Below, in pieces: positions 11,402 through 29,167 of a stretch of DNA of 64,000 nt. Below the pieces are notes generated by a model, which saw only the letters and a list, made by a program, of their open reading frames with translations, did not search any database and was not told the DNA's origin. This DNA is from Albimonas pacifica (lineage in GTDB: Bacteria > Pseudomonadota > Alphaproteobacteria > Rhodobacterales > Rhodobacteraceae). Positions within the stretch are counted from its first letter, which is position 1. Every line of letters begins with the position of its first letter. The DNA lies in the NCBI RefSeq assembly GCF_900113695.1, contig NZ_FOQH01000005.1, positions 124,001 to 188,000 on the forward strand, read 5' to 3'. Position numbers and translations under genes: made by a program.

Positions 11402-11690
11402 AGGCGCCCTGCGGGCGGGCTTGACCGGGGGGCGCTGGGGGCGAGGTCGCCGGGGAGCGGCTGGCGGGGGAGCCTCCGGCGGGCTCCGGACTCACCCAAG
11501 AACAAGACGCCCGCGCCTGTCCTCCGAAGCCGTCCATCGCTTGGGCTGCCTGAGCGACTCGCCCCCCGGGGTCAAGGACGAGCCGGCTTCGCCGGTCGCT
11601 GCGCGATCCTTGACCCCGGGGGGCGAGTCGCTCTGATCGGCGCCCGCGATGGACGGCTCCGGAGAACAGGCGCTCCCCGGGGGCGCGTGG
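11402..11690 (+). repeat. Palindromic intergenic repeat element, copy A
   Basis: First of three related elements (see 16220 and 28862). It starts with AGGCGCCCTGCGGGCGGGC, continues through CCTCCGGCGGGCTC and ACTCACC, and then forms a nested palindrome. Outer arms 11513-11540 and 11646-11673 (28 bp, two mismatches) flank inner arms 11552-11578 and 11607-11633 (27 bp, perfect). At the centre is a small hairpin CCGGC-TTC-GCCGG (11583-11595). It lies between the 5' end of the arsR gene and the 3' end of the ABC membrane gene, both on the minus strand. It has no open frame of its own and no flanking transposase. Confidence 0.9.
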
Positions 11691-11747
11691 GGCAGGGGCG
11701 AGATGGGCGGGCGTGGCACGCCTCCGGGGGAGGCGGCGACGAGGGGG

Positions 11748-16219: not shown

Positions 16220-16510
16220 AGGCGCCCTGCGGGCGGGCTCGGCTGCGTCGCGACTCTGGCGGGCGTTGCGAGAGATCGGGGAGGCGCGGAGCCTCCGGCG
16301 GGCTCCCGACTCACCAAAGAACAGAAGCGCCCGCGCCTGTCCTCCGGAGCCGTCTCTCGCTGATGGATGCCTGAGCGACTCGCCCGCCCCGGTCAAGGAC
16401 AAGCCGCGCAAGCGCGGTCGCTGCGCGATCCTTGACCGGGGCGGGCGAGTCGCTCTTTCCGGCATCCGCGAGAGACGGCTCCGGAGAACAGGCGCTCCCG
16501 GGGGCACGTG
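16220..16510 (+). repeat. Palindromic intergenic repeat element, copy B
   Basis: Same orientation and layout as copy A. The leading AGGCGCCCTGCGGGCGGGC starts at 16220. Outer arms are 16333-16360 and 16468-16495 (28 bp), inner arms 16373-16399 and 16429-16455 (27 bp, perfect), with the central hairpin CCGCGC-AA-GCGCGG. Compared with copy A, bases inside both pairs of arms have changed (for example GTCTCTCGC where A has GTCCATCGC). The opposite arms carry the matching complementary changes. It lies between the crotonase gene and recA. Confidence 0.9.
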
Positions 16511-16757
16511 GGGCAGGCGTGGGGCCGCCGGCGCGCCGTGTCCGGGCGCGGGGGGGCAGGGCGAGTTCGCCGGGCTGGCAGGGGGTTAGGGGCCGGGCGA
16601 GAGGCGCGGGCAGGGCGGGGCGGCGGATCGTTTGCTGGACGGTGCGGCGACCGGGAGCGGCGAGCGGGGCTTGCGACGGCGCCGGATCGCGGGGCTGGGC
16701 AACGCTTTCTTAACCCTGGCCGCCCAGTCTCTGCGTCGTTGGTCGAATTACGTCTAT

Positions 16758-28861: not shown

Positions 28862-29135
28862 AGGCGCCCTGCGGGCGGGCCTGGGCCCGGGGCCGGCGGG
28901 GCGCCTTCCGCCGGGGCGGGGGCGCCTCCGGCGGGCTCCTGACTCACCAAGGAACAGGGCCGCGCCTGTTTCCCGAAGCCGTCCGTCGCGTCCGATGCCT
29001 GAGCGACTCGCCCCCGGGCGTCAAGGACGAGCCCGCGCAAGCGCGGGTCGCTTCGCGATCCTTGACCCCCGGGGGCGAGTCGCTCTGATCGGCATCCGCG
29101 ACGGACGGCTCCGGGGAACAGGCGCTCCGCGGGGG
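28862..29135 (+). repeat. Palindromic intergenic repeat element, copy C
   Basis: Third copy, same orientation. AGGCGCCCTGCGGGCGGGC starts at 28862. Outer arms are 28962-28989 and 29098-29125 (28 bp, two mismatches), inner arms 29001-29027 and 29059-29085 (27 bp, one mismatch), and the central hairpin is CCCGCGC-AA-GCGCGGG. It fills the gap between the convergent di-heme cytochrome and kdsA genes and may terminate both. Arm sequences again differ from copies A and B while remaining self-complementary. Confidence 0.9.
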
Positions 29136-29167
29136 AAGCCTGTCGGGGCGCCTGGCGGCGGGCCGGG

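Follow-up and report, generated by a model that had tools for sequence, protein, structure and literature searches.

Albimonas pacifica carries a real, abundant and dynamic family of long intergenic palindromes, which we interpret, tentatively and at slightly less than an even chance, as a high-copy, non-autonomous, mosaic palindromic repeat of gene 3' flanks whose arms would be kept matched by arm-to-arm copying of DNA. We observed a high copy number, a shared layout, covariation of the arms, linkage led by pairing, equality of two copies of a short motif (X), sites that lack the hairpin, likeness by species and conservation of GANTC. Three copies, here termed A, B and C, lie in the window, the whole 64-kb stretch of DNA that was analysed.

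11402..11511, + strand: copy A leader, with small hairpins, CTCACC and the X motif (ACTCACCCAAGAACA at 11490-11504)
11512..11673, + strand: copy A hairpin core, 162 nt (covariance model, 165.5 bits; GANTC at 11556 and 11625)
11674..11715, + strand: copy A trailer, a weakly conserved G-rich tail with an approximate, not sharply defined end
16220..16331, + strand: copy B leader (X motif at 16309-16323)
16332..16495, + strand: copy B hairpin core, 164 nt (covariance model; GANTC at 16377 and 16447)
16496..16540, + strand: copy B trailer, end approximate
28862..28960, + strand: copy C leader (X motif at 28942-28956)
28961..29125, + strand: copy C hairpin core, 165 nt (covariance model; GANTC at 29005 and 29077)
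29126..29167, + strand: copy C trailer, running to the stop codon of a convergent gene

The initial annotation had the three elements begin at 11402, 16220 and 28862, and these are indeed the positions at which their type-1 leaders start. It also described a common layout and orientation with 28-bp outer and 27-bp inner arms, in agreement with our finding that all three copies lie on the + strand with their parts in one order, an outer helix of 28 positions and an inner helix of 27 positions, joined by a further 3-bp helix. Its single central hairpin gives way to two small hairpins in a three-way junction. Copy A folds far better than its own shuffled versions (z -7.73; 0 of 100 shuffles as good). 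The right arm matches each of the left outer-arm changes that had been singled out (CA, TC and CG); the claim of an exact complementary change in every copy stands for most pairs but was overstated, as mismatches occur in A, in C and throughout the family. Columns 16/152 form A.C in copies A and C, according to the alignment and structure, and the inner arm of copy C contains one C.C mismatch. Pfam matches place copy A between an HTH regulator gene and an ABC transporter gene, copy B between an enoyl-CoA hydratase-family gene and recA, and copy C between a cytochrome c gene and a DAHP-synthetase-family gene, which we take for kdsA.

The unit spans ~300-330 bp and consists, in order, of a leader, CTCACC, the X motif (RRAACA), the hairpin and a trailer. 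The leader (~100-120 nt) harbors small hairpins and, by patterns allowing up to two mismatches, belongs to type 1 in 128 of the 145 copies of the source genome described below, to type 2 in 8 and to neither in 9. CTCACC is found in 145/145 copies when C/T and A/G are allowed at two places, with T in 138 and A in 143. The core, typically 164 nt long (161-165 nt in the 32 copies listed), folds as a 28-position outer stem followed by asymmetric loops, the 3-bp helix, the 27-bp inner stem and the two-hairpin tip; at its base, the left side is the complement of X and the right side is X again. The trailer is G-rich and extends for ~40 nt or more. At one place (C31:486925), the element's 3' end lies in a short tandem duplication, and a further small palindrome, TTGACAGCTGTCAA or that sequence with one base changed, occurs within 220 nt 3' of 6/145 cores, such as C36:248998 (L193) and C26:57965 (L005).

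The initial annotation had expected many copies genome-wide and had proposed a covariance search, which might have returned these three copies alone. A covariance model trained on 32 copies of the 164-nt core detected at least 145 distinct places in the 6.02-Mb source genome (G000), comprising 143 full copies, one cut copy and one near a contig end. This number is a lower bound, as it derives from the best 150 candidates, five of which were the opposite strand of a listed place, and motif sites exist elsewhere (for instance C24:443, C28:522 and C31:407910). In the congener G062, the search yielded at least 150 matches, possibly including opposite-strand duplicates, and we read at least 73 distinct copies. 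A second congener, G061, returned one weak match, and no family of a like kind was seen in the 400 kb of it that we sampled, where just two larger clusters, of other repeats, were found.

Among 149 genomes of the family, G000 included, stricter filters left G020 (six matches at five places) and G018 (one match) as the only genomes other than G000 with full-length relatives, and tip-only matches came from G001, G037 and G100; the tip pattern was found in six others of 390 genomes, once or twice each. Scanning 80 KdsA loci (identity 59-78%, mostly Rhodobacteraceae plus other alphaproteobacteria) with the covariance model gave 13 weak matches up to E 5, the best at 0.035. One of these weak matches, L112:6483-6553 of Leisingera aquaemixtae (23.5 bits, E 0.077), has a similar tip and lies ~1.7 kb past the kdsA match. 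In several other genera (L085, L087, L088, L090, L092 and others), the tip hairpin adjoins a separate hairpin with a CACC..GAACA-like motif in the opposite orientation, which by eye looks like the same modules rearranged. Plasmid and phage collections contained no match to the element. Literature searched by title and start of abstract, with subscription journals mostly outside its scope, held no description of the family, which is weak evidence of absence.

The two arms of the palindrome vary together. In the 32-copy alignment, 96.9% of paired cells were matched, versus 90.9% after shuffling and 37-43% with a slid partner, and all measures except the number of pair types beat every shuffle. 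The full set was aligned by adding copies to this alignment while keeping its columns, and pair counts leave out two damaged copies (C41:169335 and C35:296). The inner-arm pattern fits 139 of 143 G000 copies, the other 4 departing from it, and these 139 copies carry 57 left-arm alleles; their arms match perfectly in 97 and with one mismatch in 35, as compared with perfect matches in 279 of 4932 random pairings (5.7%). When the matched inner alleles of both genomes are considered, 43 of 53 are one pair away from another, and 26 of the 46 single-pair steps are C/G flips, for which no wobble intermediate exists. With single-pair differences predominating among matched alleles, stepwise change followed by correction explains the pattern as well as block replacement, which need not be invoked. 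In one of nine orthologous pairs (G000 92143 and G062 103813), both arms differ in the inner block, with an unchanged tip between them, as judged by eye.

Linkage between parts of the element follows pairing more than distance in both G000 and G062. In G000, Cramer's V above shuffle amounts to 0.71 between the left and right outer arms and 0.52 between the left and right inner arms, with the linked paired positions ~55-145 nt apart, but does not exceed 0.07 between the tip and either set of arms, although the tip sits between them. The corresponding values for G062 are 0.76, 0.49 and at most 0.08. Because the tip is nearly unlinked to the arms, their matching is not a by-product of whole-element exchange, and gene conversion of entire elements is ruled out as its sole cause. 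Linkage between neighbors remains in G000, the outer left arm being linked to the adjoining left loop at 0.43 and to columns 16-18 at 0.30. The view that the fold and not the sequence is preserved therefore applies to the inner arm and to part of the outer arm. Elsewhere in the outer arm, at columns 10 and 16-18, the right side shows little or no variation and resembles the leader; because the left arm varies there, pairing holds in only 71 of 143 copies at column 18, in 70 at column 10 and in 117 at column 16.

A second equality links the leader to the hairpin. The two bases preceding AACA are the same in the leader and in the right arm of 143/143 G000 copies (126 AG, 14 GG and 3 GA, hence 17 without the common AG), whereas 2000 shuffles reached equality in at most 122 copies. 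In G062, 70 of 71 copies obey the rule, 2 of the 73 having failed to fit the pattern. We also identified hairpin-free joints, in which CTCACC and one X lead directly into trailer-like sequence with the hairpin missing, at no fewer than two sites in G000 and six in G062; the joint pattern allows no mismatch, making these eight sites a lower bound, and a backwards control gave 0. All six G062 sites resemble a G000 full-copy site on both flanks; the G000 DNA used was chosen around copies, so that any counterpart would be full, yet all six were found. At the four that could be aligned, 163-165 nt are missing. For the two G000 sites, the G062 DNA compared offered no clear equivalent. We read the hairpin-free sites as precise loss by slippage between the X repeats, although they could alternatively be pre-insertion sites, with insertion into X. 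At some of the G062 sites the leader is of another type than in the matching G000 copy, which leaves simple in-place loss unproven.

Comparison of stretches syntenic between G000 and G062 revealed nine shared places, four G000 copies, copy B included, that are absent from G062, and one G062 copy absent from G000. At one further place, G000 retains a remnant without the inner hairpin and G062 is full. Shared places often differ in arms or leader type. The nearest relative lies in the same species for 203 of 216 copies (shuffled mean 118, maximum 142), and orthologous copies are not each other's nearest relative; we conclude that copies have been homogenised or replaced. The palindrome nuclease SbcD did not score above the TIGR00619 cut-off in G000, G061 or G062 and did so in G178 and G001, so that, by this test, G000 and G062 hold many long palindromes without the usual palindrome nuclease. 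Absence of SbcD was rejected as the cause of the abundance: G061 also lacks it yet is almost copy-free, so there is no correlation.

According to gene calls from a simple purpose-made gene finder, none of the 145 cores extends more than 60 nt into a predicted gene. The initial annotation had put the three elements at the 3' side of genes, and the family confirms this placement: 133/145 copies border at least one gene 3' end, the other 12 being divergent. The former comprise 55 convergent and 45 and 33 tandem copies in the two orientations; tandem copies face either way (p 0.21). The 371 spacers of a 400-kb stretch, which includes 17 copies, divide into 60 convergent, 250 tandem and 61 divergent, indicating that copies are enriched in convergent over divergent spacers (Fisher p 1e-5).

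GANTC occurs in both arms of 129/143 G000 cores and 71/73 G062 cores and is absent from 9/143 G000 cores, while its density in the 400-kb stretch is 0.96 per kb versus the 2.38 that base composition predicts. GACTC appears in the leader of 107/145 copies. In other genera, GANTC flanks the tip on both sides in 7/11 loci, compared with 97/22000 random positions, and its N has changed in several of these loci. The motif YGAKTCG, given as the extended GcrA motif in PMC7987155, is present in 134/143 cores as compared with 0.28 per kb in the 400-kb stretch. GcrA was found in 9/9 genomes searched, including the copy-poor G061. The GANTC sites tie the palindrome family to the alphaproteobacterial CcrM/GcrA cell-cycle system.

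These features place the family beside the CcrM-associated intergenic repeats CIR1-CIR4 (Chen and Shapiro 2003), which we know by description and not by sequence from a review (PMC2229807), as a variant of alphaproteobacterial intergenic palindromic repeats. As that review portrays them, CIR repeats are likewise alphaproteobacterial and intergenic, with long inverted repeats and a conserved GANTC, but they measure ~110 bp as against ~300-330 bp here, join two arms through a linker where our elements form one long nested hairpin with a leader, and carry GANTC at the loop and not inside the stems. The 145 copies, the X repeats and the hairpin-free sites set the present family apart from that description. 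By eye, the two-hairpin arrangement of G447, G258 and G310 comes closer to the CIR layout. The GTAG- and CGTC-tagged REP/BIME families, extragenic palindromes with REP units of 20-40 bp, are according to PMC3733652 also many-copied and located mostly between tandem and convergent genes, and the CGTC families are alphaproteobacterial and have no dedicated transposase there, as is the case here; our family differs by its 164-nt two-stage hairpin with a structured leader and by the lack of a RAYT-type gene in ten genomes. ERIC/IRU, Correia, RUP and RPE are small interspersed palindromes as well; the terminal inverted repeats, and for several the target duplications, given for them in a table of PMC2229807 are not shown for the present family. 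Maintenance of hairpins by template switching, reported by Monttinen and Loytynoja (PMC8794818), resembles our case in the matched changes of both stem arms; that study concerns RNA genes and ancestral reconstruction, and here the object is a dispersed repeat and the evidence is linkage by pairing among the copies of one genome. Paired arm changes with unchanged sequence between them are seen here in one orthologous pair and in the linkage, from which we infer the copying events.

In the mechanism that we favor, the palindrome would extrude at replication and template switching would copy a change in one arm into the other, such that complementarity could persist with no need to select each pair individually. 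Precise removal of the hairpin would come from slippage between the X repeats, and gene conversion between copies may shuffle leader, stems and tip. The siting behind stop codons would reflect tolerance there and harm in promoters and genes, and GANTC would make the units sites for CcrM and possibly GcrA, as proposed for CIR repeats. Several observations weigh against arm copying as the sole account. Matched arms could also result from selection for a fold in RNA or DNA, columns 10 and 16-18 are often mismatched and uncorrected, linkage is not by pairing alone (left loop, columns 16-18), and copying accounts neither for the equality of X and the right-arm X while the left arm varies nor for a strand bias of the mismatches, to which we now turn.

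With the constant G72-T89 pair left out, C.A-type mismatched cells outnumber G.T-type ones by 163 to 9 in G000 and by 112 to 4 in G062, the bottom strand thus being G.T. Counted by pair position, the ratio is 23 to 8 in G000 (p 0.011), 12 to 4 in G062 (p 0.077) and 35 to 12 when pooled (p 0.001), with copies that are related and not independent; types seen in at least two copies are C.A in 17 cases versus 1, and singletons in 16 versus 10 (Fisher p 0.016). These counts are suggestive, not proof, that the strand bias is real. It could betray a functional RNA made from the bottom strand, in which a top-strand C.A would be a harmless G.U and selection would keep the fold of the transcript. C.A bridging of TA and CG pairs at columns 12, 13 and 52 and the near-invariance of CTCACC speak for such an RNA, which we nevertheless consider unlikely. 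Of the changed cells, 514 of 622 in G000 and 196 of 250 in G062 are flips or other double transversions, for which a wobble step does not exist, and it would be hard to see how selection could act on individual pairs in such a stable stem. No Rfam family reached its cut-off on the elements: at curated cut-offs the window contained only a tRNA, elsewhere, and every match of a relaxed search at copy A fell below cut-off, none being specific. The bias is moreover similar in all four gene contexts (60 pairs), and in tandem copies, whose two orientations are both common, it stands at 19:3 where the neighboring gene would transcribe the top strand and 30:1 where it would transcribe the bottom strand. 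It is therefore tied to the element's own strand, and selection in place on RNA from a neighboring transcript is ruled out.

The same strand-tied bias, together with the X - complement of X - X layout (which visual inspection also found, with different X sequences, in G018 and G020), the precise hairpin-free sites and the presence and absence of copies between species, would suit movement as a folded bottom strand, inserted and excised between X copies by a putative enzyme with the complement of X as guide. We regard this possibility as improbable, given that direct-repeat slippage yields precise loss without an enzyme and that we saw no gain. The mobile element envisaged by the initial annotation is plausible from the species differences and hairpin-free sites, but neither a target duplication nor a helper was found: no duplication appeared at the outer borders, where alignments with element-free sites are too diverged to place the outer ends, and the Y1 transposase (RAYT, IS200; PF01797) was absent from 10 genomes, a control search detecting PF01797 in 5/14. 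There is a slim chance that the family represents a new class of hairpin mobile DNA, in which the left-arm complement of X on the folded bottom strand would pair with a target X, each passage would renew the complementarity of the arms and an enzyme distinct from the known HUH transposases would act. A bidirectional terminator or 3'-end stability element would explain the predominance of gene 3' ends and the convergent enrichment, and terminators were among the roles first proposed, but our data do not support this as the main role and we judge it quite improbable. By eye, the trailers of the 145 copies mostly begin TCCC or TTTG and are G-rich, with no U tract after the hairpin and a longest initial T run of four, and several copies are closely preceded by terminator-like hairpins; in addition, the four G000 sites that are copy-free in G062 and the single weak match in G061 do not suit such a role. 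Chromosome sites for CcrM/GcrA or a nucleoid protein, with an incidental fold, would account for GANTC in both arms, the YGAKTCG enrichment and the presence of GcrA, and seem very improbable, since ~60 matched pairs and the X repeats are not needed for binding, 9/143 cores have no GANTC, and G061 possesses GcrA and almost no copies.

Arm-to-arm copying of a mosaic repeat thus remains our preferred, tentative reading. One species supplies at least 145 natural replicates of a single long palindrome and a second species at least 73 more, and the linkage by pairing, with almost none to the tip, can be read as a record of how the arms are kept in match, which has usually been studied by reconstructing the ancestors of RNA genes. 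Hairpin-free sites opposite full ones allow hairpin loss or gain to be dated. Of most value are the linkage that follows pairing and the X - hairpin - X arrangement, hairpin-free sites included. With its arms largely matched, its other parts reshuffled and a few sites free of the hairpin, the family constitutes a natural test of how cells keep palindromes matched.
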